DNA from: Ramlibacter algicola
GTDB taxonomy: Bacteria > Pseudomonadota > Gammaproteobacteria > Burkholderiales > Burkholderiaceae_C
Assembly (NCBI RefSeq): GCF_016641735.1
Contig: NZ_JAEDAO010000001.1
Span: forward strand, 1,054,001 to 1,118,000
Reading direction: 5' to 3'
DNA: 64,000 bases
Shown here: positions 11,496-33,766 of the stretch, piece after piece
How positions within the stretch are numbered: the first letter of the stretch is position 1
Layout of the letters: the number at the start of each line of letters is the position of its first letter
The notes under the pieces: model-generated
Databases searched by the model: none
Told to the model about the DNA's origin: nothing
The model's input: the letters and a program-made list of their open reading frames with translations, nothing else
Made by a program: the position numbers and the translations under genes

Positions 11496-11874
11496 CCGTC
11501 ATTCCCGCGCGCCCTCCCGTCATTCCCGCGAAGGCGGGAATCCACCGCTTCCCTCTTCCTCCACAGCCGAGTGAAAGCGATGGGTCCCCGCCTCCGCGGG
11601 ACGACGGAGGAGGGCCCGTCATCCGCACCGTCCCGTCATTCCCGCGAAGGCGGGAATCCACCGCCTCCCTCTTTCTCCACAGCCGAGTGAAAGCGGTGGG
11701 TCCCCGCCTTCGCGGGGACCACGGAGGAGGGCCCGTCGTCCGCACCGTCCCGTCATTCCCGCGAAGGCGGGAATCCATCGCTTCCGTCTTCCTTCACTGC
11801 CGAGTGAAATGGTCCCCGCCTTCGCGGGGGCGACGAAGTGGGCTTGTCATTGCGGGCTTGACCCGCAGTCCACA
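11496..11874. repeat. Tandem array of three dispersed-repeat units
   Basis: Three copies of a unit starting GTCATTCCCGCGAAGGCGGG begin at 11519, 11635 and 11752, a period of 116-117 bp. Each holds two hairpins (GTCATTCCCGC..GCGGGAAT and GTCCCCGCC..GGCGGGGAC types) joined by a spacer with CCGAGTGAAAGCG. A fragment precedes the array (11498-11510) and a GTCATTGCGGGCTTGACCCG element follows (11846-11865). The remainder of the 561-bp gap, to 12054, shows no gene; a clear promoter for livK is not visible. Confidence 0.92.
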
Positions 11875-19166: not shown

Positions 19167-20429
19167 TCACTTTCCGGTGTAGCTGATGCGGTAGATGGCG
19201 CCGGCGTGGTCGTCGCTGACCAGCAGCGAGCCGTCCTTCATCACCAGGAAGTCGACCGGCCGCCCGAGGTAGCTGTTGTTCTCGACGAAGCCCGTCATGA
19301 ACGTCTCCAGCTTCGCACCGCCCTTGCCGTCGGGGATGGCGACCTGGATGTCGGCGTACTTCTTGGTGCGGTTCCACGGGCCGTGGCGCGCGATGAACAT
19401 CGCGCCGCGGTACTTCGCCGGGAACATCTTGCCCTGGTAGAAGGTCAGGCCCAGCGAGCCGGCATGCGGGCCCAGCAGCGCGGCGGGCTTGGCGTAATCG
19501 GCGCACGACTTGCCCCAGCCGAACTCGGGGTCGGGGATGCTGCCCTGGTGGCAGAACGGGTAGCCGAAGTGGAGCTTCCCGAACTGGGCCTTGGGCACGC
19601 GATTGAGTTCGTCGTTCGGCAGCTCCTCGCTCAACCAGTCGCGCCCGTTGTCGGTGAACCAGAGGTCGCCCGTCTTCGGGTCGAAGTCGAAGCCCACCGT
19701 GTTGCGCACGCCGGAGGCGATGGTCTCGACGTTGCTGCCATCGAGGTTCATGCGGTAGATCTTCGCGTACTCGCCCGGGTCGCAGATGTTGCATGGCGCG
19801 CCGATGTTGAAGTACAGCTTGTCGTCCTTGATGCGGAAGTACTTCCAGCTGTGGTCGGTGCCGCCGGGCAGCTTGTCGTACAGCACCTTGGGCTCGCCCA
19901 GCTTGTCCAGGTTGTCCTCGACGTTGTCGTAGCGCATGAGCTTGGTGTTGGTGCCCACGTACAGGCTGCCCTTGTGGAACGCGATGCCCGTGGCCAGCGG
20001 CATGTTGTCGATGATCACCTTGGGCTTGCGCTCACCCTGCTCGGCAATTGCATAGACCTTGTTCGCCACGAACAGCGAGCTGACGAAGATGTTGCCCTTG
20101 GCGCCCTGGCGCAGCTCGCGCGCGTCGAGCACGCCCGAGGCCCAGGTCTCGGCCTTGAAGCCCGGTGGCAGCTTGAACTTGCTGGTGGGCAGCTTGTCGG
20201 GCGCGGTGGGAATCGGGAACGCGGGGACGGGCGCCATCTTCTGCGCCTCGTCGCTCTTCGGCCGGCCCTTGGCCCAGCCGGGTTCCTCGGTGCTCGCGGT
20301 GGCGCCGGGCGGGGTGCCGGACGCCGGGACGGCCGGCGTGCCGGCGGGCAGCGGTTGCGCGGGGGCGGGCGAGCCCACGCACGCCAGCACCGCGAACGCG
20401 ATGCCGGCCTGGATCTTCTTCATCGCCAT
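19167..20429 (-). CDS. Glucose/sorbosone dehydrogenase-like periplasmic protein
   Basis: A 420-residue exported beta-propeller protein. A signal peptide ends near APAQ, followed by a Pro/Ala-rich spacer; the body has repeated propeller strands such as GSLYVGTNTKLMRYDN, VRNTVGFDFDPKTGDLWFTDNGRD and FIARHGPWNRTKK, the last being a hallmark of the PQQ-dependent sorbosone/aldose dehydrogenase family. A C-x2-C pair (CNIC) is near the middle. ATG 20429 follows AAGGAGA. Together with the downstream cytochrome c it forms a two-gene periplasmic oxidation module. The actual substrate is unknown. Confidence 0.88.
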   Translation of the reverse strand: MAMKKIQAGIAFAVLACVGSPAPAQPLPAGTPAVPASGTPPGATASTEEPGWAKGRPKSDEAQKMAPVPAFPIPTAPDKLPTSKFKLPPGFKAETWASGVLDARELRQGAKGNIFVSSLFVANKVYAIAEQGERKPKVIIDNMPLATGIAFHKGSLYVGTNTKLMRYDNVEDNLDKLGEPKVLYDKLPGGTDHSWKYFRIKDDKLYFNIGAPCNICDPGEYAKIYRMNLDGSNVETIASGVRNTVGFDFDPKTGDLWFTDNGRDWLSEELPNDELNRVPKAQFGKLHFGYPFCHQGSIPDPEFGWGKSCADYAKPAALLGPHAGSLGLTFYQGKMFPAKYRGAMFIARHGPWNRTKKYADIQVAIPDGKGGAKLETFMTGFVENNSYLGRPVDFLVMKDGSLLVSDDHAGAIYRISYTGK

Positions 20430-20530
20430 GTCTGTCTCCTTTGCCCCGGAGGGGCGAACCATTGTGGTCAGGTGGAATGAAGCTGCGCAACTGTCAGGAT
20501 TTGCGCCGCACGGTAGAGCTCCCTGTCGCT

Positions 20531-21763
20531 TCAGAAAGCCCAGAACGGCCCGTTGCCCGCCGGTGTCGGCGCATCCTTGATCGCCACGAACACGGTGCGG
20601 CCGAAGAAGAACGGCAGGCCCCACAGCGTCTCGTTCTCCCACGGCGCGGCGATCGTCGCCGCTGCGGCGCCCCACGTGGGCGCGCTCTCGACCGTGAAAC
20701 TCATCGCCTGCTCCACGCCCGCTGGTGATCGCAGCCGCACGTCGAGCGCAGTCGGCTGCGCGGGGCAGAACAGCTCGCCGCACTTGGGCAGCTCGGTGTC
20801 GGGGAACAGCAGCGCGTTGCTGCCGCTGTCGATGTACGCGGGCAGGCTGCGGCCCTTCAGCGTCACGCTGACCTGGCCGCTGCGATCGGGCGCCAGCAGG
20901 CGTGCGCTGCCCAGCTGGTTGTTGGCATCGGTGCCGATGCCCAGCACCAGCGCACCGCCGACGGTCGCCGCGCCGCCCTGCGGCACCTGCTGCAACATCA
21001 GCGCGACGCCGTTGTTGTGCGCGGCCAGCAGCGTCACCGGGTTCGTCACCTGCGACGCGAGCGGGACCGTCGCCGGCGCGCAGCCCGACGCACCGCAGCC
21101 GTAGTACATCGCCGGCGCGGCGCTGGTGACGCAGGACGAGCCGCAGTCCTGGCGCGACATGCCCACGCCCAGGATGCCTTTGGCGTCGAGGCGATTCGCG
21201 AGATTAGCGCCGGCGCTCGAGCAACCGGAAGGGATCGTGGCGAAGCGCGCATCGGTGTCGGCCATCACGTGCACCGGCATGGAGGCGATGCGTTGCCCCG
21301 CCAACTGCACGTCGGCGCGCCGCACCGATCCCCAGGTGAAGCCGCCGAGGAACTTCATGCACTGCGCCGCAGCGCTGCCATCGGTGGTCGCGGCTTCCGG
21401 CAACGCCAGTGTCGCAGGCAAGGCGCTCGCATTCAGGCGCAGGCCTGCCGACGCGGTGTCGACGATCACGTGGTCGATGTCCGCGCAGGTACCGCCCGGC
21501 ACGCAGACGGTGACCGTCACGAACGGCGCGTTGAAGGCGGTGCCGCGGATGCCGCGATCGACCACCACCGGCAGCACGTTGGCCGCGGCGGTGGGCGTCG
21601 GGCCGAAGCCCGTGGGTGCATTGGTCGGGGCCGACAACGGTGCGACGCCCGCAAAGACGGGTTCCACTGTCTTCGTTGCGGACCCGCCGCCACCGCCGCC
21701 GCCGCACGCGGCGAGCACGAGTGCGCAGGCGATCGACACGCCGACGCGTAGCAGGCGCTTCAT
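20531..21763 (-). CDS. DUF3443-family lipoprotein
   Basis: A 410-residue lipoprotein with lipobox L-A-A-C at Cys20 followed by a run of seven glycines. The body has an aspartic-protease-like pattern: VIVDTASAGLRL near the N-terminal third and AYIDSGSNALLF further on, each resembling the D-T/S-G loop of pepsin-like proteases, plus several Cys pairs. This matches the DUF3443 family common in Burkholderiales. Its start overlaps the stop of the DUF2844 gene by four bases. Function not established; the protease resemblance is my own reading. Confidence 0.85.
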   Translation of the reverse strand: MKRLLRVGVSIACALVLAACGGGGGGGSATKTVEPVFAGVAPLSAPTNAPTGFGPTPTAAANVLPVVVDRGIRGTAFNAPFVTVTVCVPGGTCADIDHVIVDTASAGLRLNASALPATLALPEAATTDGSAAAQCMKFLGGFTWGSVRRADVQLAGQRIASMPVHVMADTDARFATIPSGCSSAGANLANRLDAKGILGVGMSRQDCGSSCVTSAAPAMYYGCGASGCAPATVPLASQVTNPVTLLAAHNNGVALMLQQVPQGGAATVGGALVLGIGTDANNQLGSARLLAPDRSGQVSVTLKGRSLPAYIDSGSNALLFPDTELPKCGELFCPAQPTALDVRLRSPAGVEQAMSFTVESAPTWGAAAATIAAPWENETLWGLPFFFGRTVFVAIKDAPTPAGNGPFWAF

Positions 21764-22170
21764 GGCAGGTCCCTCGGGTCGAACGAGGCGGGCAGCCGTC
21801 CCGGCAGCCAGGCGCGGCCCGTGAAGGCGCCGGCCCCGCCACCGGAGGCGATCACCACGTCGCGCGTGCGCACGACGATCGGCGCGTGCAGGCTGCTGCG
21901 TGACTGGGCATCGACCAGCGCCAGGTAGTGCTGGCCCAGCATCGCCTGCAGCTCCGGCAGGTAGGGGCCGGACCACGCGACCGCGAACACGATGCCGCGG
22001 CGGTCGATGTAGTGCACCACGCGCGTGCCCGACGGCAGCACCTGCACCGCCTGCGTGTACGGTGCCCGCGACTTCGCGCCCAGCGTGGGTGGCCGCTGCT
22101 CCTGCACCGAACCCCACGCGGGCGCGGCGAGCAGCGTGAGGCAGACGAACAGCGTGCACCTTGTCGGCAT
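21760..22170 (-). CDS. DUF2844-family secreted protein
   Basis: A 136-residue protein with a signal peptide (MPTRCTLFVCLTLLAAPAWG) and conserved DUF2844-type text: VQVLPSGTRVVHYIDRRGIVFAVAWSGPYLPEL. It lies directly upstream of, and overlaps, the DUF3443 gene; the two families are regularly paired in Burkholderiales. The pair probably acts in the envelope. No function is known to me. Confidence 0.85.
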   Translation of the reverse strand: MPTRCTLFVCLTLLAAPAWGSVQEQRPPTLGAKSRAPYTQAVQVLPSGTRVVHYIDRRGIVFAVAWSGPYLPELQAMLGQHYLALVDAQSRSSLHAPIVVRTRDVVIASGGGAGAFTGRAWLPGRLPASFDPRDLP

Positions 22171-22309
22171 AGGAGCCTCCCTGCCGGCGCGTCGTGCAGG
22201 ACCGCGCCGTTTGCAGGGATGGTGCGCCGGGCCGCGCTGGCTCAGCAGGGACAGATGTCCTGCTGGGCGGCAGCAGGTGTCATGGGATCTGTGCGGCGGC
22301 GCACTTTTC

Positions 22310-22418
22310 GTCATTCCCGCGAAGGCGGGAATCCACCGCTCCCGCGTGCAGTGCCGCTTCCGCTTTCATCGGGTGTTGAAGGGAAGCGATGGGTCCCCGC
22401 CTCCGCGGGGACGACGGA
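22310..22418. repeat. Dispersed palindromic repeat
   Basis: A full unit: GTCATTCCCGCGAAGGCGGG at 22310, spacer with GGGAAGCGATGG, and GTCCCCGCCTCCGCGGGGAC at 22392-22411. It lies between the M20 peptidase stop and the DUF2844 start. The flanking gap (22171-22309) shows nothing recognisable. Confidence 0.88.
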
Positions 22419-22430
22419 GTGAGCGCTCGT

Positions 22431-23723
22431 TCAGCGCTTCAACACACCCTTGCCGATATCCATGACCAGCCGCGTCACCAGGTACAGCCGCGGCTCGATC
22501 GAATCGATCAGCACGTACTCGGCATCGTTCGAATGCGCGCCGAAGCCTTGCAGGCCGAAGCGCTCGACGACACCGGCCTTGCCCGGAATGCCCGCGAACG
22601 CGGCGTCGGTCCCACCACCGGAAACCTGGTCGTCGGCCGCCAGCTTGCGACCCAGCTCCCCGTAGACGGCCTGCGCGTGCTTGGCCAGTGCCAGCGAGCC
22701 GGGGTTGGCTTCCAGCGGCGGGCGGCGACGCTCGAACTGGATCTCCACCTTGGCATCGGGCACCAGCTGCTTCTTCACGCGCTCCTGCACCGTCTTCTCG
22801 ATGCGGTCGAAGTCGGCGATCTTGATCACGCGGACGTCGGCGGTCGCGGTGGCGTCGGCCGGGATCACGTTGCGGTTGGTGCCGGACTGCGAGATGGTCC
22901 AGTTCATCTTGAGGCCGGTGCTCGGGTCCGACAGGTCGCGCAGCTGCAGCACCTGGTGCGACAGCTCGTACAGCGCGTTGATGCCCTGCTCGGGCGCGGC
23001 GCCGGCGTGCGAGGCCTTGCCCTTGACGCGCAGGTTGAACGAGCCGATGCCGGCGGTGGCCAGCGACAGCTTGTCTTCCTTGATGCTGGTGCCCTCGTGC
23101 GACAGCACGAAGTCGTGCTCGGCGGCCAGCTTCTGGAACATGGCGCGCGAGCCGGGCGAGCTGATCTCCTCGTCGCCGTTGACCAGCACCGTGACGGTGT
23201 CGTAGTCCTTGAAGCCCAGGTCCTTGAGCATCGTCATCACGTGCAGGATGACCGCGACGCCCTGCTTGTCGTCGGCGATGCCCAGGCCGTACGCCTTGTC
23301 GCCCTCGATGCGGAACGGCTGCTTGGCCAGCATGCCCTTGAGGTACACGGTGTCCATGTGGGCGATCAGCATGACCTTGCCCTTGCCGGTGCCCTTGAAG
23401 GTGGCGCGCACCATGCGCCCCAGCTTGTCGGGCGTGTCGCCCATCTTGTAGACGTCGGGGCTGGCGGGGCTGCCCGGCTCGATCAACTCCACCTGCGCGC
23501 CCAGCGCGCGGAACTTGCCGGCGATCAGGTCCGACAGCTTGTCCAGGCCTTCGCGGTCGCGGCTGCCCGACTCGATGTTGACGAAGTCGCGCAGGTCGTC
23601 GAGGAAGGGCTGCTTGTGCTGCGTGGCGAGCGCGGCGATGCGGTCGTCGCGCTGGGCGGCCGTGGCGGGCGCGCTGGCGAGGAAGGACGCGGCGAGGAGC
23701 AGGGCGAGGGGAGTGAGGCGCAT
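22431..23723 (-). CDS. M20-family metallopeptidase (glutamate carboxypeptidase-like)
   Basis: A 430-residue exported zinc peptidase similar to carboxypeptidase G2. A signal peptide ends near ATAAQ. Metal and catalytic positions are visible: the His/Asp of LIAHMDTVY, the Asp of IADDKQGVA, the Glu pair of NGDEEISSPG, an Asp in VRVIKIAD and the C-terminal His of GAHSNDAEYV. It likely removes C-terminal glutamate from peptides or folate-type compounds. A second M20 enzyme is at 37314-38564. It is divergent from the bacteriocin-type locus, with 189 bp between. Confidence 0.92.
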   Translation of the reverse strand: MRLTPLALLLAASFLASAPATAAQRDDRIAALATQHKQPFLDDLRDFVNIESGSRDREGLDKLSDLIAGKFRALGAQVELIEPGSPASPDVYKMGDTPDKLGRMVRATFKGTGKGKVMLIAHMDTVYLKGMLAKQPFRIEGDKAYGLGIADDKQGVAVILHVMTMLKDLGFKDYDTVTVLVNGDEEISSPGSRAMFQKLAAEHDFVLSHEGTSIKEDKLSLATAGIGSFNLRVKGKASHAGAAPEQGINALYELSHQVLQLRDLSDPSTGLKMNWTISQSGTNRNVIPADATATADVRVIKIADFDRIEKTVQERVKKQLVPDAKVEIQFERRRPPLEANPGSLALAKHAQAVYGELGRKLAADDQVSGGGTDAAFAGIPGKAGVVERFGLQGFGAHSNDAEYVLIDSIEPRLYLVTRLVMDIGKGVLKR

Positions 23724-23797
23724 GTCTGGTCTGCGTTGGGATGGAGCGGGGATCGTAGCGCGGGCGATGGTTGCGCGGCGCCGGTTCTGAAGGAGTT

Positions 23798-23833
23798 GTC
23801 ATTCCGGCGGAAGCCGGAATCCATCGACTGGAG
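23798..23833. repeat. Dispersed palindromic half-repeat
   Basis: GTCATTCCGGCGGAAGCCGGAATCCATCGACTGG, a single hairpin of the same family, in the gap between the M20 gene and the first precursor peptide. No clear promoter is visible in the remaining bases. Confidence 0.75.
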
Positions 23834-23912
23834 GGCGCTGGCCACTTAGTTGGCGGATGCCGTTCGCTGCCGGCGTCAATACGCTGCCCACTCCCTCACC
23901 GCGGAGCCCTCC

Positions 23913-24017
23913 ATGCATGACCTCACCCCCGCCGAACTCGACGCCGTCTCCGGCGGCACCAGCTGCTGGTCGCCCCCGCCCGGCCCCTCCGGCGAACCGA
24001 AACCCGACCTGCTCTGA
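23913..24017 (+). CDS. Double-glycine-leader peptide 1 (candidate microcin precursor)
   Basis: A 34-residue peptide. The first 15 residues, MHDLTPAELDAVSGG, match the double-glycine leader of class II microcins (microcin V: MRTLTLNELDSVSGG), including conserved Leu, Glu-Leu and Val-Ser-Gly-Gly positions. The predicted 19-residue product is TSCWSPPPGPSGEPKPDLL: proline-rich, with one Cys and no obvious helix. It lies 5 bp before the HlyD-type adaptor gene, so it is in the export operon. Start ATG 23913 has GCGGAG about 9 bases upstream. It could be a bacteriocin, a signalling peptide or a small exported peptide; the leader is well supported, activity is not. Confidence 0.75.
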   Translation: MHDLTPAELDAVSGGTSCWSPPPGPSGEPKPDLL

Positions 24018-24022
24018 CCCCC

Positions 24023-25276
24023 ATGCGCCCGCTGTTCCGCGCCGACGCCGTCGCGTACGCCGGCCAGGCCGCACCGGGGCAGGTGCTGCTCACGCGCTCG
24101 AAGGCGCAGGCGGTGGTCGTGGCGACGACGTGCCTCGTTGCGCTGGCCATCGTCGCCTTCGTCGTGCTGGCCAGCTACACGCGCAAGGCGCAGGTCACGG
24201 GCGTGCTGCTGCCATCGGACGGGCTGGTGCGGCTGGTCGCACCGTCGACGGGCGTGATCGTCCGCCGCGCGGTCGAGGAAGGGCAGGCCGTCCGTGCGGG
24301 CGAGCTGCTGTTCGTGATCTCCAACGAGCGCGAGGACAGCGCCAGCGGCAGTGCCGAGCGGCACGTCAGCGAGCTTCTGCGCAAGCGCCAGGACAGCGTC
24401 GCCGCCGAACGCGCGGAGCAGGTGCGTCAAAGTGCGCAGAGGATGCAGGCGCTCGAGGCGCGCGCGCAGGCGCTTGCCGCCGATCTGGATCGGCTCGTCG
24501 CCCAGCACGGCTTGCAGCAGCGCCGCGCGGATCTCGCGCTGCAGGCACTGCAGCGCTACGAGCGACTGGCCGCAGCGGACTTCGTCTCCGGTGCGCAGGT
24601 GCACGACAAGCAGGCGGACCTGCTGGACCAGCAGCAGCGGCTGGCCGATCTGCAGCGAGCGCGGGGCAGCATGCAGCGCGACTTGCTGGCCGTGCAGGCC
24701 GAGTTGCGCGACGTGCAGGCGCAATCGCGCCGCGACGAGCAGGCGACGCTGCGGGCCCTGGCCGCACTGCAGCAGGACCTGGTGGAGAACGAAGCGCGGC
24801 GCGAACTCGCCGTGCGCGCACCAGCCGACGGCACCATCGCGGCCGTGACGGCACAGCCGGGCCAGTCGATCGCGGCGCACCAGGTGCTCGCTTCGCTGCT
24901 GCCCGCCGGCTCGCAGCTGGAGGCGGAGCTCTACGCGCCGTCACGCGCGGCGGGGTTCATCCGCACCGGCATGCCGGTGCTGCTGCGCTACCAGGCCTTC
25001 GCGTACCAGAAGTTCGGGCAGGCGCGCGGCACGGTGCGCGAAGTGGCGCGCAGCGCGCTGAAGGCCGACGAGGTCGCGCTGGCCGGTGTGCTGCCACCGG
25101 GGGCGGAACCGGTCTACCGCGTCCGCGTGCGCCTGGAGCGGCAAGTGGTCGATGTGTACGGCGCGCCGCAACCGCTGCGTCCCGGTGCGTTGCTGGACGC
25201 CAGCGTGTTGCTGGAGGAGCGGCGGCTCCTCGAGTGGCTGCTCGATCCGCTGTACGCCGTCACGGGGCGGGTGTGA
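24023..25276 (+). CDS. HlyD/CvaA-like membrane-fusion protein
   Basis: A 417-residue periplasmic adaptor of a type I peptide exporter. It has one N-terminal membrane segment (about residues 32-53), a biotinyl-lipoyl half (VTGVLLPSDGLVRLVAPSTGVIV), a long coiled-coil hairpin rich in Gln/Arg/Ala (about 100-260), and a second lipoyl half (LAVRAPADGTIAAVTAQPGQSI). It bridges the ABC transporter encoded next and an outer-membrane channel. No TolC-type gene is in the window, so a TolC elsewhere is presumably used. Stop and next start overlap (TGATG). Confidence 0.93.
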   Translation: MRPLFRADAVAYAGQAAPGQVLLTRSKAQAVVVATTCLVALAIVAFVVLASYTRKAQVTGVLLPSDGLVRLVAPSTGVIVRRAVEEGQAVRAGELLFVISNEREDSASGSAERHVSELLRKRQDSVAAERAEQVRQSAQRMQALEARAQALAADLDRLVAQHGLQQRRADLALQALQRYERLAAADFVSGAQVHDKQADLLDQQQRLADLQRARGSMQRDLLAVQAELRDVQAQSRRDEQATLRALAALQQDLVENEARRELAVRAPADGTIAAVTAQPGQSIAAHQVLASLLPAGSQLEAELYAPSRAAGFIRTGMPVLLRYQAFAYQKFGQARGTVREVARSALKADEVALAGVLPPGAEPVYRVRVRLERQVVDVYGAPQPLRPGALLDASVLLEERRLLEWLLDPLYAVTGRV

Positions 25277-27411
25277 TGCAAGGCGTGGGCGTGCTGGGGC
25301 TGCGCTTCTTCGACAGCCGGCGGTTGCCCGTCCTGCGCCAGTCCGAAGCGGCGGAGTGCGGCCTGGTGTGCCTGGCGATGGTCGCCAGCTACTGGGGGCA
25401 CCGGCTGGACGTCGGTGCGATGCGGCAGCGGTTCGCCGTCTCGCTCAAAGGCACCACGTTGCGCACGCTGCTGTCGATGGCCGAGCGCCTGCACCTGCAG
25501 GCGCGGCCGCTGAAGCTGGACATCGACCACCTCGGCCAGTTGCGGCTTCCCTGCGTGCTGCATTGGGACATGCAGCACTTCGTCGTGCTGAAGTCGGTGA
25601 AGGCGGGCACGGTGGTGATCCACGATCCTGCAGTGGGCGAACGAACGATCCCGATGCAGGAGGTGTCGCGCCGCTTCACGGGCGTCGCCGTCGAATTGGT
25701 GCCGGCGGCCGGATTCGAGCAGCGCGACGAGCGCCAGCGCGTTCGCCTGCGCAGCCTGGTGGGCCGCGTCGTCGGCCTGCGGCGCGGGTTGCTGCAGGTG
25801 CTGGCACTTGCGGCCGCGCTGCAGCTGTGCGCGCTGCTCGGGCCGTTCTACCTGCAGTGGGTGATCGACGAGGCGCTGGTCAGCGCCGATCGCGACCTGG
25901 TCACGGTGCTGGGCACCGGGTTCATCCTGCTGGTGCTGCTGCAGGCCGGCGTCGGCGCGGTTCGCTCGTGGCTGGCCACCGTGCTGACCACGAGCTTCAA
26001 CTTCCAGTGGCTGGGCAACGCGTTCGCGCACCTGCTGCAACTGCCGCTGTCGTGGTTCGAGAAGCGGCACGTGGGCGACGTGGTGTCGCGCTTCGGCTCG
26101 CTGCAGACCGTGCAGCGCACGCTGACCACCCAGAGCGTGGAGGCGGTGCTCGATGGCCTGCTGGTCACCACCACCTTGCTGCTGATGCTGCAGTACAGCG
26201 TCCCCCTCACCATGGTGTCGATCGGCGTCGTCGCCGTGTACGCCGCCTTGCGCTCGCTGCTGTTCACCGCGCTTCGCGGTGCGACCGCCGACCAGATCGT
26301 TGCTTCCGCCAAGCAGCAGACCCACTTCCTCGAATCCGTGCGTGGCGCGCAGGCGGTCCGCCTGTTCAACCGCGCCGACAGCCGCCGCACCGGCTGGATG
26401 AACATGCTGGCCGAGCAGTTCAACGCCGACCTGCGCATCGCCCGCCTCACCATCACGCACCAGGGCGCGCAGGCATTGCTGTTCGGCGGCGAGCGCATCG
26501 CCGTCATCTGGCTCGCCGCGCTGGCGGTGCTGGACGCGCGGTTCACCGTCGGCATGCTGTTCGCGTACACCGGGTTCAAGGACCAGTTCACCCAGCGCGT
26601 GACTGCGCTCGTCGACCGCATCTTCGAGTTCCGCATGCTGCGCCTGCATGCGGAACGCCTGGCCGATGTGCTGCTGGAACCGCCGGAGCCGGCGCACGGC
26701 CCGGACGAAGCCGTGCAGGACGATCGGCCGCCCAGCATCGAGTTGCGCGACGTGGGCTTCCGCTACGCCGACGGCGAGCCGCCGGTGCTGCAAGGCGTGT
26801 CGCTGCGCATCGAACCGGGCGATTGCCTCGCGATCGCGGGCGCGTCCGGATGCGGCAAGACGACGCTCGTGAAAGTGCTGCTCGGGCTGATCGAGCCCAC
26901 CGAAGGCCAGGTGCTCGTCGACGGCCGGCCGCTGCGCCGCTACGGGCTGGTGCGTCACCGTGATCGCGTCGGCACCGTCATGCAGGACGACCAGCTGTTC
27001 ACCGGCACCATCGCCGACAACATCGCTTTCTTCGATCCGTCACCCGAGCTGCAGCGCATCCACGCCTGCGCGCAACTCGCCGCGCTGCACGCCGATATCA
27101 GCGCGATGCCGATGGCGTACTCCACGCTAGTGGGCGACGGCGGCGCCGGGTTGTCGGGCGGGCAGCGCCAGCGCATCCTGCTGGCGCGGGCCTTGTACAA
27201 GCAGCCGCAGGTGCTGGTGCTCGATGAAGCCACCAGCCACCTGGACGTCGCCAACGAGCAGCTCGTGAACGCCGCCATCAAGCAGATCGCCCTGACCCGC
27301 ATCATCGTCGCCCACCGCCCCGACACCATCGCGATGGCGCAGCGTGTCGTCGTCCTGCAGCAGGGCAGGGTGGTGCGTGACTTCCAGCAGCACGTGGCCG
27401 CGGCGGCTTGA
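25276..27411 (+). CDS. Peptidase-containing ABC transporter (CvaB-like, C39)
   Basis: A 711-residue inner-membrane transporter with three parts. Residues 1-140 are a C39 cysteine protease domain with the complete triad: Gln22 and Cys28 in RQSEAAECGLVCLAMVASYW, His101 in QHFVVL and Asp117 in VIHDPAVG. Residues about 165-440 are the transmembrane domain. Residues about 480-711 are the ATPase, with Walker A GASGCGKTT (about 522), signature LSGGQRQR and Walker B VLVLDEATSHLD. Such proteins cut after Gly-Gly of the leader and export the product in one step. All three nearby leader peptides fit this specificity. Confidence 0.96.
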   Translation: MQGVGVLGLRFFDSRRLPVLRQSEAAECGLVCLAMVASYWGHRLDVGAMRQRFAVSLKGTTLRTLLSMAERLHLQARPLKLDIDHLGQLRLPCVLHWDMQHFVVLKSVKAGTVVIHDPAVGERTIPMQEVSRRFTGVAVELVPAAGFEQRDERQRVRLRSLVGRVVGLRRGLLQVLALAAALQLCALLGPFYLQWVIDEALVSADRDLVTVLGTGFILLVLLQAGVGAVRSWLATVLTTSFNFQWLGNAFAHLLQLPLSWFEKRHVGDVVSRFGSLQTVQRTLTTQSVEAVLDGLLVTTTLLLMLQYSVPLTMVSIGVVAVYAALRSLLFTALRGATADQIVASAKQQTHFLESVRGAQAVRLFNRADSRRTGWMNMLAEQFNADLRIARLTITHQGAQALLFGGERIAVIWLAALAVLDARFTVGMLFAYTGFKDQFTQRVTALVDRIFEFRMLRLHAERLADVLLEPPEPAHGPDEAVQDDRPPSIELRDVGFRYADGEPPVLQGVSLRIEPGDCLAIAGASGCGKTTLVKVLLGLIEPTEGQVLVDGRPLRRYGLVRHRDRVGTVMQDDQLFTGTIADNIAFFDPSPELQRIHACAQLAALHADISAMPMAYSTLVGDGGAGLSGGQRQRILLARALYKQPQVLVLDEATSHLDVANEQLVNAAIKQIALTRIIVAHRPDTIAMAQRVVVLQQGRVVRDFQQHVAAAA

Positions 27412-27421
27412 GGGCTCGAGG

Positions 27422-27552
27422 CCGTCATTCCGCACCTCCTCCGTCATCCCCGCGAAGGCGGGGATCCATCGCTTCCGTCTCCCCCTCTTTGGGCACCTCA
27501 TCGTCCGCCTCGTGGATGCCAGGCTGCACACCGTCGCCACACAGTGAAAGCG
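27422..27552. repeat. Dispersed palindromic repeat (partial unit)
   Basis: GTCATTCCGCAC and GTCATCCCCGCGAAGGCGGGGATCC (27443-27467) followed by CATCGCTTCCGTCTCC and later AGTGAAAGCG. This is a first hairpin and degraded spacer of the common unit, placed between the transporter gene and peptide 2. Confidence 0.75.
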
Positions 27553-27591
27553 AACACTGCGTCGGTGTTCGAACCAACCAAGGAGATTGCA

Positions 27592-27759
27592 ATGCAAGAA
27601 CTGGATTGCGCCGAAGTGGAGCAGGTCGCCGGTGGCCTGGCGTTCTATTACTACACGCCGCCTGCTCCCTACAACGCCAACGTCCTCAGTGACATCCAGG
27701 CGGGCTCGCGCGCGGCCGGCGAGTACGACAACCCGAACCCGCTGGACTGGGCGGTCTAG
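27592..27759 (+). CDS. Double-glycine-leader peptide 2 (candidate microcin precursor)
   Basis: A 55-residue peptide with a 15-residue leader MQELDCAEVEQVAGG and a 40-residue predicted product. The product is aromatic and proline-rich at its start (LAFYYYTPPAPYNANV) and acidic toward its end, terminating in PLDWAV, with no Cys. The start ATG 27592 has a strong AAGGAG site 7 bases upstream. The leader is nearly the same as that of peptide 3, and both peptides are exactly 55 residues, which suggests duplication of the leader with divergent products. No known family is recognised in the mature part. Confidence 0.8.
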   Translation: MQELDCAEVEQVAGGLAFYYYTPPAPYNANVLSDIQAGSRAAGEYDNPNPLDWAV

Positions 27760-27933
27760 CCGGATCGGCAGCCTCTCCTGTTGGATGAGGCCTCGCAGCC
27801 GCTTCCTCCAGGGAACGGATGCCGTCCGCGCAACAGCTTCCGAAGATGGCTTTGTCTGCGGCTGGACTGCGGACTACCATGGCGAGCATCTTCCTTCGGT
27901 GCTCGTCTTCTCTCAACCTTCTAGGAGATAGCG

Positions 27934-28101
27934 ATGCAAGAACTGAACATGCAAGAAGTCGAGCAAGTCAGTGGTGGTAGGACGCTCACGGAGTGGGGAC
28001 AGGACCTCATCGGCCTGCTCGGAATGGTCGGCGACATCCAGAATGCGCTGATCGATGCGATCGTCGACGTCGCATGTACGGCGACCACCGAGTGCCGGTG
28101 A
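27934..28101 (+). CDS. Double-glycine-leader peptide 3 (candidate microcin precursor)
   Basis: A 55-residue peptide with leader MQELNMQEVEQVSGG and a 40-residue product. The product contains a hydrophobic, helix-prone stretch with small residues (DLIGLLGMVGDIQNALIDAI) and a C-terminal C-x5-C pair (CTATTEC) that could form a disulfide. This is the layout of a pore-forming class II microcin or bacteriocin. AGGAG lies 7 bases before ATG 27934. An intrinsic terminator follows 5 bp after the stop. The gap 27760-27933 contains no other convincing precursor. Confidence 0.82.
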   Translation: MQELNMQEVEQVSGGRTLTEWGQDLIGLLGMVGDIQNALIDAIVDVACTATTECR

Positions 28102-28106
28102 TCCAA

Positions 28107-28128
28107 GGGGGCAAAAGCCCCCTTTTTT
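28107..28128 (+). terminator. Rho-independent terminator after peptide 3
   Basis: GGGGGC (28107-28112), loop AAAA, GCCCCC (28117-28122) and a run of six T (28123-28128). A perfect 6-bp GC stem with T-tract, typical intrinsic terminator. It would end the peptide transcript before the CPBP gene, whose start is only 10 bp further on, so that gene is expressed by partial read-through or its own promoter. Confidence 0.92.
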
Positions 28129-28138
28129 CTCTCTGAGC

Positions 28139-28909
28139 ATGGCCCAGCCAATCGGTCCCATCAAAGCCGTCCTTGCGACGACGTTGTGTTTCCTCTTCGC
28201 CAGCTTTGGGGCTGGAGCAGCGAAGCAATTCGGTGCTCCGGCGGAAGTCGCGACGCTGCTGCTCCCAATGCTGCTTTTGCTGATTGGTGTCGGGATGCTC
28301 TTCTCGGCAGGCCTGCGGGCATTTCCCAAGTCCCCTCCAGCGCCAAGCGCGATTGCCAAGTGTCTGATTCTCGGCTTTGCGACTGCGGCCTTGAACGTCA
28401 GCGTCATCCTCAGCGCCCATAGTGGTTCGCCCGTTGAAGAAAGCGCGAGGCCGGGACTCCAATACTTGCTCGCAGCCGGGGTTCTTGGTCCTTTGTCGGA
28501 AGAGATCCTCTTCGTGGGATTTCTGTTCTCGTCGCTTCGAACTAAGTTGAAGCTGCCTCTGGCGACTGCCGTTGTCGCGATATTGTTTTCGATTGCTCAC
28601 GCGCCCAGCAATGCACTCAGCTTAGAAGCGCGGTTGATCTACATGGTCAATTCTTGCCTCCTGTTTGAGTATTCCATGAACCTCTCGTTGAACGTGATCG
28701 CCCATATGTTGGGCAATGGCTTGACCGTTCTTAGCTACTCAGAGATTCCGTGGCTCGAAGCAGCCTCGAGAGGGCACTCTAGTGAGTTGATGCTTCTCCC
28801 CGTGTTCTTCCTTGGAGTTCTCGTCGCGCTGGCTTGGACGACGTTCGCAGGTGTGCGAGTTCGCGACCGAAGTACTCGAATTTCGGAATCCGGTCCGGCC
28901 CCGGGCTGA
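28139..28909 (+). CDS. CPBP-family intramembrane protein (candidate immunity)
   Basis: A 256-residue multi-pass membrane protein with about seven hydrophobic segments and CPBP (CAAX protease and bacteriocin-processing) motifs: Glu121-Glu122 in GPLSEEILFVGFLF, F150-x3-H154 in FSIAH and H189-x3-N193 in HMLGN. The Arg normally closing the first motif (EExxxR) is Val126 here, so activity may be altered. CPBP proteins are known self-immunity factors in several class II bacteriocin loci, and the position next to leader peptides fits that. Base composition is clearly lower in GC than flanking genes, a sign of transfer. ATG 28139 is chosen; no strong ribosome site is visible. Confidence 0.85.
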   Translation: MAQPIGPIKAVLATTLCFLFASFGAGAAKQFGAPAEVATLLLPMLLLLIGVGMLFSAGLRAFPKSPPAPSAIAKCLILGFATAALNVSVILSAHSGSPVEESARPGLQYLLAAGVLGPLSEEILFVGFLFSSLRTKLKLPLATAVVAILFSIAHAPSNALSLEARLIYMVNSCLLFEYSMNLSLNVIAHMLGNGLTVLSYSEIPWLEAASRGHSSELMLLPVFFLGVLVALAWTTFAGVRVRDRSTRISESGPAPG

Positions 28910-29003
28910 TTTCAACGCTGCGCAGCCAGATGCGCTCGAGCGCGTCTGGACGCCAGCCGCCCCGCCTCGCATACGATCTCCCCTCCCACAACAAGGAGAC
29001 GTG

Positions 29004-29981
29004 ATGCTTACCCGCCGCCACCTGACCTCTGCGCTCGCTTTCGCGGCCCTCGCCGCCGCCACCGGCACCGCCTTCTCCCAGCCCGCCACCTACCCGTCCA
29101 AGCCGATCCGCTGGCTCGTGCCGTATCCGGCGGGCGGTGGCTCGGACTTCCTGGCGCGCACCATCGGGCAGCAGCTGTCCACGCTGGTCGGCCAGCCCGT
29201 GCTTGTGGACAACAAGCCGGGGGGCAACACCGCGATCGCGGCGTCGGAAGTGGCGCGCGCGCCGGCCGACGGCTACACGATCTTGTCGGCGGACAACGGC
29301 ACGATGGTGTTCAACACCGCGCTGTACTCCAAGCTCACCTACAACCCGCAGACCGAGCTGGTGCCGGTCACGCTCATGGGCAAGTTCCCGATGATCCTGG
29401 TCGCCGGTCCCGGCACGGACGCCAAGGACGCGAAGGACTTCATCGCCAAGGCCAAGGGCCGCACCACCAACTACGGCTCCGCTGGCGCGGGCAGCCCGCA
29501 CCACCTGGCGATGGAGCTGCTGAAGGTGAGCGCCGGCCTCAACATGGTCCACGTGCCGTACCGCGGCGCGGCGCCGGCACTGACGGACCTGGCCGGCGGC
29601 CAGATCCCGGTGATGATGGTCGATCTGGCCGCCGGCGCCGGCTTCATCAAGGGCGGCAAAGTCCGCGCGCTGGCGGTGGCCAACCCCACGCGCCTGCCGC
29701 AGCTGCCCGACGTGCCGACGTTCGCCGAGCTCGGGTTCAAGAACGTCGAAGCCGCCGCGCAGGTCGGCCTGGTCGCGCCCGCGGGCACGCCGGCCGACGT
29801 GGTCAACACGCTGCAGAAGCAGGTGGCCGCGGCGATCAACACGCCGGCCATCCGCCAGAAGCTGGTGGACTTCGGCATCGAGCCGGTGGCCAGCACGCCG
29901 CAGGCGTACGCGGACCTGATCAAGGACGAGGTCACGCGCTGGCACAAGCTGATTCGCGACCAGAAGATCTCGCTCGACTGA
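29004..29981 (+). CDS. Bug-family (TctC) periplasmic binding protein
   Basis: A 325-residue solute receptor. A Tat/Sec-like signal (RRHLTSALAFAALAAATG) precedes the mature start YPSKPIRWLVPYPAGGGSDFLAR, the classic Bug motif; further conserved text is GQPVLVDNKPGGN and HVPYRGAAPALTDLAGGQI. Bug proteins bind carboxylates, amino acids or aromatic acids, and most are orphan receptors expanded in Burkholderiales. No TctAB genes are adjacent. ATG 29004 follows AAGGAGA. Ligand unknown. Confidence 0.94.
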   Translation: MLTRRHLTSALAFAALAAATGTAFSQPATYPSKPIRWLVPYPAGGGSDFLARTIGQQLSTLVGQPVLVDNKPGGNTAIAASEVARAPADGYTILSADNGTMVFNTALYSKLTYNPQTELVPVTLMGKFPMILVAGPGTDAKDAKDFIAKAKGRTTNYGSAGAGSPHHLAMELLKVSAGLNMVHVPYRGAAPALTDLAGGQIPVMMVDLAAGAGFIKGGKVRALAVANPTRLPQLPDVPTFAELGFKNVEAAAQVGLVAPAGTPADVVNTLQKQVAAAINTPAIRQKLVDFGIEPVASTPQAYADLIKDEVTRWHKLIRDQKISLD

Positions 29982-30124
29982 GCGCCGTGGCAGCGCGCGG
30001 CCCGTGCCGCGCGCTGTCACGCTGCTGCCTCGACGGTGCGCAGCTCGCGCATCGTGTGGCGCGGAAAACGATGGGCTGGACCCAGTCGGGTAGCCGTCAG
30101 CATGCGCTCCCAGAATGCGCGGCG

Positions 30125-30406
30125 ATGACACTCGACACCTTGCTCACCATCTGGCGGTCGGCCGACGATCGCGCGCGCTACTGGGAGCATGAATTGCGCA
30201 TCCTGCTCGAGGAGCAGCCCGACGGCGCGGGGCCGGACCTGCTGCACGTCGCGCGCGTGTTGCAGATGCGGCAGGATGAGCAGCAAGCGCTGCACCTGGT
30301 GGTCGGCATGATCGGACGCTACCTGCCGCGCGGTTGGCGCCGCGCCCTGGATGCGGTGCACCACCGCGCATCCGAGCCCACGCAGCCACTGCCGCAGGAC
30401 GCGTGA
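30125..30406 (+). CDS. Small hypothetical protein
   Basis: A 93-residue soluble, helix-rich protein (TIWRSADDRARYWEHELRIL, LHVARVLQMRQDEQQALHLVV) with no membrane segment or known motif that I recognise. It lies in the gap between the Bug receptor and the convergent GAF/Fis regulator. Codon use looks coding (strong G/C at third positions). The ribosome site is weak, so the start is uncertain. Confidence 0.5.
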   Translation: MTLDTLLTIWRSADDRARYWEHELRILLEEQPDGAGPDLLHVARVLQMRQDEQQALHLVVGMIGRYLPRGWRRALDAVHHRASEPTQPLPQDA

Positions 30407-30418
30407 CGGCGCGGTAGG

Positions 30419-31525
30419 TCAGCGCGTGTTGCGCTGGCCCAGCTTGCGGTACACCGTCGCGCGGCTGATGCCCAGCTGCTGCGCGGCCTTGGCGACGTTG
30501 CCCTTGGCGTCGCGCACCGCCTGCCTGATCAACTCCGTCTCCAGGTCCTTCAGCGGCAGCTTCTGGCCCACGGCCGCGGGGGCTGCGCGCAGTTCGGCGC
30601 CCGCGCCCTGCGCCAGCACCTGCACCGTCAGGCCCGACCACAGCGGCACTTCGATCGCGCGTTCTTGGTCCGCGGCATCGAACAACGATTCCCACGCGCA
30701 CGCCAGCACCTCGCTGCAATGCACGCGCGGCTGCAGCGCGGGCGCCGCCAGCATCTCGCGCGCGGCACCGTTGCTACCGACGATCCAGCCGTCGCGGTCC
30801 ACCGCCACCAGTCCCTGGTGGTCCGAGCCGAAGTCGCAGCCCGGCCAGTTGAGGCGCAGCAGCAGCGCATGCGGGCGCGCGAGCAGCAGCGCGTCCTCGA
30901 TGCCGTGCGCCGCCTGCTGCACGAGGTGCTTGAGCTCGGGCCGCTCGGCGGCGTCGATGCCGGTCAGGTCCAGCATGCCAACGCTGCCGCCTTCGGGCCC
31001 GAACAGCGGCGCGCCCGCGCAGCTGTAGCAACTGGTGTCGTCGAAGAAGTGTTCGCCGCGATGCAGCCACACGGGGTGTCGCTCGGCGAGCGCGGCGCCG
31101 ATGGCGGTCGTGCCCACCGCGCGCTCGGACAGGTCCACGCCGACGCGCGTGATGAGGCTGGCGCGCCGGTCGCTGCGGTCGATGAGGCCGTCGACGCCGA
31201 CGACCGTGCCGTGCGCGTCGGTGAGGATGGCGAAGTAGCGCGTGCCCGCGATCGCGCGGGCCAGCCGCGACATCACAGGGCGGGCGGCCTGCAGCAGTGC
31301 ATGGTTGGCGTCTTCTGTGCGGCGGCGCGCCTGCTCGGGCAGCACGTCGAAGGCGACGCGCTGGGCGGGCCGCTGGCCCATGGCCAGGCAGCGGCGCCAC
31401 GATTGCTCGATCCAGCGCGGGCCCGTCCCTGCGGCGACCATCCCATCCGTGGGCGAGCGTTGCTCGGCCAGCACCGCTTGCCGGGCGCGCTGGATGGACT
31501 GCAGCCGGGCCGCTTCGTGCAGCAT
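30419..31525 (-). CDS. GAF/Fis-type transcriptional regulator lacking the AAA+ domain
   Basis: A 368-residue regulator resembling AcoR-type sigma-54 activators at both ends. An N-terminal region with WRRCLAMGQRP, a GAF-like sensory domain (GTTAIGAALAERHPVWLHRGEHFF, then DTSCYSCAGAPLFGPEG), and a C-terminal Fis-type helix-turn-helix (VAKAAQQLGISRATVYRKLG). The central AAA+ domain (GESGTGKE-type Walker A, GAFTGA loop) is absent, so it cannot remodel sigma-54 polymerase by itself. It is divergent from the TonB receptor gene with 90 bp between, which makes that gene a probable target (inference). ATG 31525 follows AAGGAG. Confidence 0.88.
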   Translation of the reverse strand: MLHEAARLQSIQRARQAVLAEQRSPTDGMVAAGTGPRWIEQSWRRCLAMGQRPAQRVAFDVLPEQARRRTEDANHALLQAARPVMSRLARAIAGTRYFAILTDAHGTVVGVDGLIDRSDRRASLITRVGVDLSERAVGTTAIGAALAERHPVWLHRGEHFFDDTSCYSCAGAPLFGPEGGSVGMLDLTGIDAAERPELKHLVQQAAHGIEDALLLARPHALLLRLNWPGCDFGSDHQGLVAVDRDGWIVGSNGAAREMLAAPALQPRVHCSEVLACAWESLFDAADQERAIEVPLWSGLTVQVLAQGAGAELRAAPAAVGQKLPLKDLETELIRQAVRDAKGNVAKAAQQLGISRATVYRKLGQRNTR

Positions 31526-31615
31526 GTCGTCTCCTTGGCTGGTTGGGCTGGCGCGCGCAGAATCGCCTGCACGGCACCCGCGCCCACTGTGGCACGGACA
31601 CAATACCCGAGCAAC

Positions 31616-33766
31616 ATGCCCCAGCCATCCTTCGCCCGTGCACCGTCGCTCGCCGCCACCCTGCTCGCACTGGCGCCGTGCTTGCATGCACAAGAAGCGA
31701 CTGAAGCCGCCGATGCGGTCGTGCTGCGGCCAGTCACGGTGACGGTCACGCCGGGCGTGCCGCAGCTGGCATTCGACACGCCGGCATCGATCGACGTGAT
31801 CGGCGGCGCGGCGCTGCGCGATGGCCAACTCGGCGTCAACGTGTCCGAGTCGCTCGTGCGCGCGCCGGGCGTGACGGCGCTGAATCGGCAGAACTACGCG
31901 CAGGACCTGCAGGTGTCGATCCGCGGCTATGGCGCGCGGTCCACGTTCGGCGTGCGGGGGCTGCGGCTGTACACCGACGGCATTCCCGCGACGGCGCCCG
32001 ACGGCCAGGGGCAGGTGTCGCACTTCGACCTGCTGACGGCGGATCGGCTGGAGGTGCTGCGCGGGCCGTTCTCGGCGCTGTACGGCAATGCGTCCGGCGG
32101 CGTGATCAATCTCATCACTGCCGATGGCGGGCCGGACACCGTGCTCGAAGCGGGCGGCGCGGTCGGTGCCGACGGCGTGCAGCGCACGACGCTGCGCGCG
32201 TCGGGCCAGCAGGGCGCGCTGCAATACAACGTGGGCGCCAGCCGCTTCGACACCGACGGTGCAAGGCCGCACAGTGCGGCGCGCCGCGACGCGCTCAACG
32301 CCAAGCTGAAGTGGACGCTCAACGAGGACACGCGCCTGAGCGTCGTGGCCAACCACGTGCACATCCCGGATGCGCAGGACCCGTTGGGGCTCACGCGTGC
32401 CGAGCTGCAGGCGAACCCGCGGCAGGCCACCGCGGCAGCCACGCAGTTCGACACGCGCAAGACGGTGGGGCAGTCGCAGGTCGGTGCGATCTTCGAACAG
32501 CGCTTGTCGTCCGCGCAGTCGCTCAAGGTCACCGGCTGGACCGGCACACGGTCCACCGTGCAGTTCCAGTCGATCCCGGTCGGCACGCAGGCGGCGCCGA
32601 CCAGCCCGGGCGGCGTCATCGACCTGGACCGCAGTTTCAGCGGCCTCGATGCGCAGTGGACCCTTCGCACGCGCGCGCTCGACGTGCCGTTGGCGCTGAC
32701 CGTCGGCTTGACGGGCGAGCAGCTGCGCGAGAACCGGCAAGGCTTCCAGAACTTCATCGGCAGCGGCGCGGCGCAGGTACTGGGCGTGCGTGGCGCGCTG
32801 CGCCGTGACGAGCGCAACACGGCGCGCACCTTCGACCAGTATGCACAGGGCGTCTGGAACTTCGAGCGCTGGTCGCTCACCGCGGGCCTGCGGCATTCGT
32901 CGATCCGTTTCGAATCGGGCGACCGCTACCTGGCCAACGGCGACGACAGCGGCGCGGTGCGCTTCGGTGCGACCACGCCGGTGCTGGGCGTCGTGTGGCG
33001 CGCGAGCCCGACGACCAATCTGTACGCGTCGGCGGGGCGCGGCTTCGAGACGCCGACGCTGAATGAGCTGTCGTACCGCCAGGGCGGCGCCGGCCTCAAC
33101 TTCGCCTTGCAGCCTGCGCGCAGCCGGCAGGTGGAGGCTGGCGTGAAGACGGAGTTCGGCGAAGCGGGGCGGCTGAACTTCGCGCTGTTCGAAGCGCGCA
33201 CCAGCGACGAGATCGCCGTGCTGTCCAACACCGGCGGGCGCAGCACCTTCCGCAACGCGGGGCGCACGTTGCGGCAAGGCGTGGAGTTGTCGCATGCGGC
33301 GCAGTGGCGCGGCGGCTGGTCGACGCTGCTGTCGGCCACGCAGCTGCGCGCCGTGTACCAGGATGCGTTCCTCACCTGCGGCCCCGCGCCCTGTGCGGTG
33401 CCGGCGCTTCCCGTCGCCGCGGGCAACCGCCTCCCGGGCATTCCGCGAGCGTCGCTGTACGGCGAACTCGCGTGGGCGCACAAGCCGTGGGGTCTGGGCG
33501 TGGCGGCCGAAGTGCGTCACCAGGGGCGCATGGCGGTCGACGATCGCAACACGGATGAAGTGGGTGCATCGACGCAACTCGCCTTGCGCGCGACGCTGGA
33601 GCAGAAGAGCGGGCGCTGGACGTTGCGCGAGTTCGTGCGCGTGGACAACGCCACCGACCGGCAGTTCGTCGGCTCGGCGATCGTCAACGAGGGGAACGGC
33701 CGCTACTTCGAGCCGGGGCCGGGGCGGACGTGGCTGCTGGGGGTGACTGCGTCGTTGAAGCTGTGA
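31616..33766 (+). CDS. TonB-dependent outer-membrane receptor
   Basis: A 716-residue siderophore/vitamin-type receptor. A signal peptide ends near CLHAQ. The plug domain follows (SIDVIGGAALRDGQLG, VSIRGYGARSTFGVRGLRLY, DRLEVLRGPFSALYGNASGGVINLI), then a 22-strand barrel with a terminal strand WLLGVTASLKL. This resembles PupA/FecA-like receptors for ferric complexes, but the ligand cannot be told. The upstream divergent GAF/Fis protein may control it. ATG 31616 lacks a strong ribosome site. Confidence 0.94.
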   Translation: MPQPSFARAPSLAATLLALAPCLHAQEATEAADAVVLRPVTVTVTPGVPQLAFDTPASIDVIGGAALRDGQLGVNVSESLVRAPGVTALNRQNYAQDLQVSIRGYGARSTFGVRGLRLYTDGIPATAPDGQGQVSHFDLLTADRLEVLRGPFSALYGNASGGVINLITADGGPDTVLEAGGAVGADGVQRTTLRASGQQGALQYNVGASRFDTDGARPHSAARRDALNAKLKWTLNEDTRLSVVANHVHIPDAQDPLGLTRAELQANPRQATAAATQFDTRKTVGQSQVGAIFEQRLSSAQSLKVTGWTGTRSTVQFQSIPVGTQAAPTSPGGVIDLDRSFSGLDAQWTLRTRALDVPLALTVGLTGEQLRENRQGFQNFIGSGAAQVLGVRGALRRDERNTARTFDQYAQGVWNFERWSLTAGLRHSSIRFESGDRYLANGDDSGAVRFGATTPVLGVVWRASPTTNLYASAGRGFETPTLNELSYRQGGAGLNFALQPARSRQVEAGVKTEFGEAGRLNFALFEARTSDEIAVLSNTGGRSTFRNAGRTLRQGVELSHAAQWRGGWSTLLSATQLRAVYQDAFLTCGPAPCAVPALPVAAGNRLPGIPRASLYGELAWAHKPWGLGVAAEVRHQGRMAVDDRNTDEVGASTQLALRATLEQKSGRWTLREFVRVDNATDRQFVGSAIVNEGNGRYFEPGPGRTWLLGVTASLKL

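Follow-up and report, generated by a model that had tools for sequence, protein, structure and literature searches.

A putative microcin-type export locus with three double-glycine peptide precursors in Ramlibacter algicola

We analyzed a 64-kb stretch of Ramlibacter algicola DNA (64,000 nucleotides, hereafter the window), in which an earlier note had described three small genes with 15-residue double-glycine (GG) leaders flanking a HlyD-type adaptor and a C39-type exporter. All of these open reading frames (ORFs) were found as described, and the locus comprises the following features.

23913..24017, + strand: pep1, a 34-aa precursor with a 15-aa GG leader and a 19-aa Pro-rich core containing one Cys (ORF and Shine-Dalgarno motif)
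24023..25276, + strand: hlyD, a HlyD-type periplasmic adaptor of 417 aa (PF13437, E=7.4e-20)
25276..27411, + strand: C39 peptidase-ABC exporter of 711 aa (PF03412, E=9.5e-34; PF00664; PF00005; motifs intact)
27592..27759, + strand: pep2, a 55-aa precursor with a 15-aa leader and a 40-aa Tyr/Pro-rich anionic core (leader score, independent profile)
27934..28101, + strand: pep3, a 55-aa precursor with a 15-aa leader and a 40-aa hydrophobic anionic core ending in a C-terminal Cys pair (leader score, independent profile, relatives)
28105..28124, + strand: terminator-like hairpin followed by a T-run (pattern scan; 8-bp stem in the fold)
28139..28909, + strand: CPBP (Rce1-like) membrane protein of 256 aa, immunity candidate (PF02517, E=7.5e-12; motif-1 Arg replaced by Val)

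All reading frames of the locus are intact, and strong Shine-Dalgarno (SD)-like motifs lie upstream of pep1, pep2, and pep3. The hlyD gene, which by eye has no clear SD motif of its own, starts 5 nt after pep1, suggesting translational coupling of the two genes. The hairpin (z-score -0.97 over a 51-nt stretch) lies 3' of the pep3 stop codon and probably terminates the transcript; expression of the CPBP gene would then depend on read-through or on a separate start. A CPBP start codon at 28055 was rejected because it would overlap pep3, the ATG at 28139 being likelier. A scan for sigma-70-like promoters found none, an Rfam scan of positions 20000-32000 gave nothing at gathering scores, and no modification enzymes were present among the neighbor genes scanned. 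The GC content was 69-73% for the exporter and adaptor genes, 58.9% for pep3, and 57.1% for the CPBP gene, compared with 68.8% for the whole window; given this drop over 27934-28909, the pep3-CPBP end may be of separate origin. The flanks look ordinary by Pfam, with an M20 peptidase upstream on the minus strand and a TctC-type receptor downstream. A TonB-dependent receptor (PF00593, PF07715) is encoded at 30665-33766 (+), a few kb downstream of the locus. REP-like palindromes of the GTCATTCCCGCGAAGGCGGGAATCCA type were also observed (e.g., 11519-11777, 22310-22415, 23798-23823, and 27443-27468), one of them between the exporter gene and pep2; they have 21 matches in the window (≤3 mismatches, versus 0 in 100 shuffles) and were rejected as a component of the peptide system.

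The Pfam domains and intact motifs of the exporter support its prediction as C39-type processing and export machinery. The C39 domain keeps Gln22, Cys28, His101, and Asp117 exactly where the earlier note had placed them, and the Walker A, LSGGQ, and LVLDEA motifs of the ATPase are intact. Four elements of a class II microcin system are present, namely a GG-leader precursor (pep1 being borderline), a C39-ABC transporter, a HlyD protein beside the exporter, and a TolC-type channel in the genome, where the TolC-family PF02321 gave 17 domain matches away from the locus. Assignment of the exporter to the NHLP-type family TIGR03796 was rejected, with a score of 474 bits versus a curated cut-off of 853.

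The leaders of the three precursors (MHDLTPAELDAVSGG, MQELDCAEVEQVAGG, and MQELNMQEVEQVSGG) share V at -4, L or V at -7, E at -8, L at -12, and M at -15. None of 1000 shuffles reached the alignment score of any leader pair, and a leader regular expression gave three matches in the window, all at this locus. In a whole-genome search with a leader profile, pep1, pep2, and pep3 were the only matches with E<0.1 (next E=0.156; pep1 had E=4.1e-6 when its own leader was included in the profile), and the sole C39 match of the genome was the exporter adjoining them; leaders and exporter are thus exclusively paired in this genome. Because the profile contained the leaders of the window itself, the search was repeated with 22 leaders from other loci. 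This independent profile recovered pep3 (E=2.7e-7) and pep2 (E=5.1e-5), and pep1 was absent at E≤0.01. On a scoring matrix built without the window leaders, pep3, pep2, and pep1 reached 49.3, 30.4, and 14.5 bits, and the two highest maxima among 30 simulated 64-kb windows were 18.3 and 11.3 bits, which places the pep2 and pep3 leaders far beyond chance. The pep1 leader alone is borderline, since one simulation scored higher and 14.3 bits were also reached elsewhere in the window, at a site that does not coincide with the start of an ORF. The case for pep1 therefore comes partly from its place 5 nt before hlyD, which argues for it together with its exact 15-residue leader and its SD motif.

That leaders of this type are kept at related loci was borne out by the independent profile, by a search of 399 same-family genomes, and by a scan of 103 loci. 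A Burkholderiales origin is supported as well, G064, a genome of this family, matching Methylibium sp. NZG without a difference over 5097 bases. The independent profile gave 15 matches in 10 of the 399 genomes, 14 of them ≤2.5 kb from a C39 exporter among those listed (distances by eye) and a single one, on contig 25 of G260, away from any listed exporter. Without the five matches from the two genomes that had fed the profile (G328 and G173), 9 of 10 were near an exporter, two of these nine being those of the window. An exporter match at E≤1e-150 was found in 130 of the 399 genomes, among the matches listed, and the best 80 of 414 candidates from the exporter search were kept as named loci. 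One of these, L042, lies on a contig titled Bacillus subtilis SK7B5 and carries a proteobacterial-type exporter locus, which looks like contamination.

The leader scan of 103 loci (L032-L111, L143, L145, L146, L149-L159, L178, and L187-L194, with duplicates and short loci dropped) gave 54 ORFs, versus 0 in reversed sequences; this count is partly circular, as the 22 leaders of the matrix came from these loci and L187-L194 were fetched for a leader, and it includes two ORFs of L187 that L194 repeats. Excluding L187-L194, at least one leader ORF was found in 35 of 95 loci, some of them weak and distant from the exporter (L035 and L040). A clear precursor was nearby in five (L032, L033, L069, L143, and L178) of the 13 loci with the closest exporters (≥60% identity, rounded, among the matches listed: L032-L040, L069, L143, L145, and L178). 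In the other eight, the scan detected no trustworthy precursor near the exporter; their precursors are elsewhere or their leaders are different. A precursor just ahead of hlyD, as in the window, also occurs in L032, L054, L066, L067, and L073. When neighbor ORFs of ≥90 aa were clustered, only adaptor and exporter clusters (or overlapping frames) among the 25 largest were tied to the close loci, a crude procedure that also missed divergent CPBP genes.

The three cores show no resemblance to each other, as had been claimed, with 233, 327, and 372 of 1000 shuffles reaching the observed pairwise alignment scores. The 19-aa core of pep1 contains 6 Pro and has a charge of about -1.6; in the 40-aa core of pep2 (about -3.2), 7 residues are aromatic and 5 are Pro; and only the 40-aa core of pep3, with two Cys (about -4.3), has a mean hydropathy above zero. 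The calculated masses of mature pep2 and pep3 are about 4.41 and 4.28 kDa, the latter being 2 Da lower if the Cys pair is oxidized. Three database relatives of pep3 were found, at 89, 76, and 76% identity. All four sequences end in the same 12 residues, among them both Cys, and this speaks for translation and selection of the peptide. One database relative of pep2 was found, 98% identical. Among 60 genomes of the genus, pep3 was present in this genome only, with no convincing homolog in the other 59; two matches at E 0.005-0.009 were discounted, as they fall within much longer frames (368 and 1064 aa). The AlphaFold model of pep3 contains two helices, which are only indicative at a mean pLDDT of 58.6. 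The cores were also said to be unlike known microcins, and in agreement with this, no precursor exceeded a curated cut-off for Pfam PF10439 or the NCBIfam bacteriocin families: pep3 scored 13.9 versus 27.1 bits for PF10439 and 13.7 versus 21.5 bits for TIGR03949, and pep1 and pep2 matched none of these families. By reading, GxxxGxxxG is absent from all three precursors. Judged from its hydrophobic sequence and conserved C-terminal Cys pair, pep3 is the likeliest toxin among the three.

The CPBP gene lies on the same strand as pep3, 37 nt downstream. CPBP/Rce1-like proteins are characterized by the motifs EExxxR, FxxxH, and HxxxN; the window protein, which scores 49.2 bits and thus above the cut-off for PF02517, has EExxxV, FSIAH, and HMLGN. 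In four other loci, a PF02517 gene over the cut-off lies immediately 3' of, and in the same orientation as, a GG precursor gene. In L032, two precursors are followed by a CPBP gene and then by a second CPBP-like gene that is invisible to Pfam; L103 has the order precursor, CPBP, hlyD, ABC, which is that of microcin S; L157, from the genus of the window, has the order exporter, precursor, CPBP (51 nt apart); and L158 contains three precursor-like ORFs, a CPBP gene with EExxxR, hlyD, and ABC. In addition, L069 has two more distant PF02517 genes on the strand of the precursor, of which one exceeds the cut-off and the other falls short of it, and L037 has a CPBP-like gene before hlyD, detected only by a custom CPBP profile. 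As that profile was seeded with six of these proteins, only L037, L103, and L157 are independent finds there. With the window CPBP as the query, tblastn found two matches in 102 loci (E 0.018 and 0.043). In L143, a rhomboid-family gene (4696-5709, -; PF01694, E=3.1e-13) follows the precursor in the place of CPBP.

Among 25 genomes chosen for close exporters (32 exporters), three PF02517 matches were ≤5 kb away from an exporter (G000, G328, and G091); without the window, this amounts to two versus 0.12 expected (P about 0.006). PF02517 was not enriched in 80 further genomes (93 exporters), where one match (G204) was near versus 0.34 expected, and pooling both sets without the window gave three versus 0.46 (P about 0.011). 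These tests, with near cases and exporter numbers taken by eye, covered 102 of the 130 exporter-bearing genomes. The enrichment is confined to the set chosen for close exporters, and this mixed outcome, together with the varied neighbors, makes CPBP look like one of several interchangeable partners rather than a fixed part. The immunity protein against a Vibrio cholerae microcin is reportedly a protease.

The locus was compared with several systems described in the literature. In the microcin S operon mcsS-mcsI-mcsA-mcsB of E. coli G3/10, the CAAX-family protein McsI conferred immunity in experiment (PMC3316575). The locus resembles this operon in its GG-leader precursor, CAAX/CPBP-family neighbor, HlyD adaptor, C39-ABC transporter, and Cys pair in the peptide; however, microcin S has one 120-aa glycine-rich precursor, whereas here there are three mutually dissimilar ones (34, 55, and 55 aa) in a different gene order, and the immunity function was tested for McsI but is inferred for the CPBP protein (PMC3316575). 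Class II microcin systems likewise consist of a precursor, a PCAT, an MFP, an adjacent membrane protein, and a TolC encoded elsewhere, but the system predicted here differs from class II microcins generally in having three cargos, one of just 19 residues (PMC9746304). Only ten class II microcins are counted as validated, mostly from E. coli (PMC9746304), and 79 genomes had been screened in about 2003 for GG-leader peptides near C39 exporters in Gram-negative bacteria (cited in PMC9746304). The Cdz system of Caulobacter also combines a type I exporter with small GG-leader proteins, and Cdz-like systems, 5% of which have up to three candidate toxins, are reported from Burkholderia cepacia (PMC5380434). 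Cdz-like proteins are contact-acting, 60-151 aa long, and have glycine zippers (PMC5380434), whereas the window precursors are 34-55 aa without an extended zipper, and membership in this contact-dependent class was rejected. Another betaproteobacterial system, the Nap island of Neisseria, encodes three GG peptides with a C39 peptidase; these peptides have no detectable antimicrobial activity and promote autolysis (PMC11798529). The term CAAX did not occur in the available portions of PMC11494933, PMC13174018, PMC13101503, and PMC9746304, nor did any word beginning with Burkholderi- in those of the first two, and no title describing such a Burkholderiales system was found among the open-licence papers searched.

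Judged from its genes, the locus more likely than not encodes a class II microcin-type or bacteriocin-type multi-peptide export system, a reading to which we give a probability of about 0.55. This reading is favored by the genome-wide pairing of the leaders with the C39 exporter, the leader matches near exporters in the family genomes, the intact C39 domain, the PF02321 matches, the conservation of pep3, the likeness to microcin S, and the precursor-CPBP adjacency at four other loci. The anionic cores, the lack of a microcin family match, precursors at 5 of the 13 closest loci, the terminator before CPBP, the lack of CPBP enrichment in the 80 genomes, and the inactive Nap peptides speak against it. 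We infer that the C39 domain would bind the 15-residue leaders and cut after Gly-Gly, and that the mature peptides, 19, 40, and 40 residues long, would then leave the cell by way of the exporter, HlyD, and a TolC-type channel whose gene lies outside the locus. The hydrophobic pep3, with a probable C-terminal disulfide loop, would likely be a membrane-active toxin against related bacteria, against which CPBP likely shields the producing cell, either by cleaving pep3 or by holding it within the membrane. The Pro/Tyr-rich, anionic pep1 and pep2 may be exported in the same way and serve as partners or as signals.

The same machinery could instead export pheromones or community signals without killing, which would suit pep1 and pep2, as both are short, anionic, Pro/Tyr-rich, and unlike membrane-active peptides, and has a parallel in the GG peptides with a role in Synechococcus biofilms (PMC4997328). 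Against this, no sensor kinase or response regulator was found among the immediate neighbors scanned, and an immunity candidate adjoins pep3, making signaling unlikely. A self-directed role, in which the peptides drive lysis of the producer or another stationary-phase process, has its model in the Nap island, but the Nap peptides are cationic and accompanied by a FapF-type channel, whereas the locus combines anionic cores with a C39-ABC transporter and HlyD (PMC11798529); we consider this role very unlikely. There is as little to expect from decay or silence of the locus: the absence of convincing pep3 homologs from the other 59 genomes of the genus and of a detectable promoter would fit peptides that are no longer made, but the intact frames and catalytic residues, the pep3 core kept in three relatives, and the strong SD motifs all point the other way.

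Of greater weight is the possibility that CPBP is an unrelated membrane protein that lies downstream by chance, with immunity encoded elsewhere or unneeded. The CaaX protease gene beside the Cdz cluster is dispensable and lies outside that system (PMC5380434), and the intervening terminator, the lost motif-1 Arg, and the absence of enrichment in the 80 further genomes are all consistent with such a bystander. On the other side stand the shared strand and 37-nt spacing, the similarly low GC content of pep3 and CPBP, the precursor-CPBP adjacency in L032, L103, L157, and L158, and the excess near the exporters of the 25 genomes. The immunity role proposed in the earlier note is thus partly supported, by the experimental precedent of McsI and the recurring adjacency, while the terminator and the Val in motif 1 count against it.

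Within the bacteriocin-type reading, the locus and its relatives would provide a small betaproteobacterial system in which one exporter handles three very short peptides that are unrelated to each other. Grouping by eye, after the data had been seen, gave a mixed composition that the window, despite its unrelated core sequences, shares with L032 (two peptides rich in Pro and two rich in Gly/Ala, plus two CPBP-like genes) and L158 (one helix-like and two Pro-containing peptides, plus one CPBP; the third ORF comes from a looser scan only). It is a tentative and rather doubtful proposal that these represent a recurrent set in which one C39 exporter serves one or more Pro-rich peptides of negative or nearly neutral charge and one or more helix-like peptides, a protein of an intramembrane-protease family being encoded alongside. 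If so, the helical toxin would have the Pro-rich peptides as obligate partners, acting as carriers, ligands, or signals, and CPBP would provide proteolytic immunity to the toxin. What seems new is this combination of Pro-rich and helix-like cargo on one exporter. Two questions can thereby be put to the test: does a single C39 exporter carry chemically distinct peptides that cooperate, and do membrane proteins of the CPBP family commonly provide immunity in Gram-negative bacteria?

Several further precursor types were observed at exporter loci. Three loci of the same genus encode a second type with a leader ending EELELVAGG and Asn/Gly-rich cores, beside exporters of 53-55% identity (L150, 4270-4461; L151, 4250-4471; L156, 9270-9479). 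The Nitrosomonas precursors just before hlyD (L066 and L067, 4468-4587; L073, 4509-4619) have cores of only 20-23 residues that are Trp-, Phe-, or Tyr-rich. Near the C39 exporters of L187 and L189, two or three GG precursors with Leu/Gly-rich repetitive cores are arranged in tandem, and the GG precursors of L111 (4263-4457) and L190 (1372-1551) contain a hydrophobic stretch followed by Cys/Pro-rich repeats.
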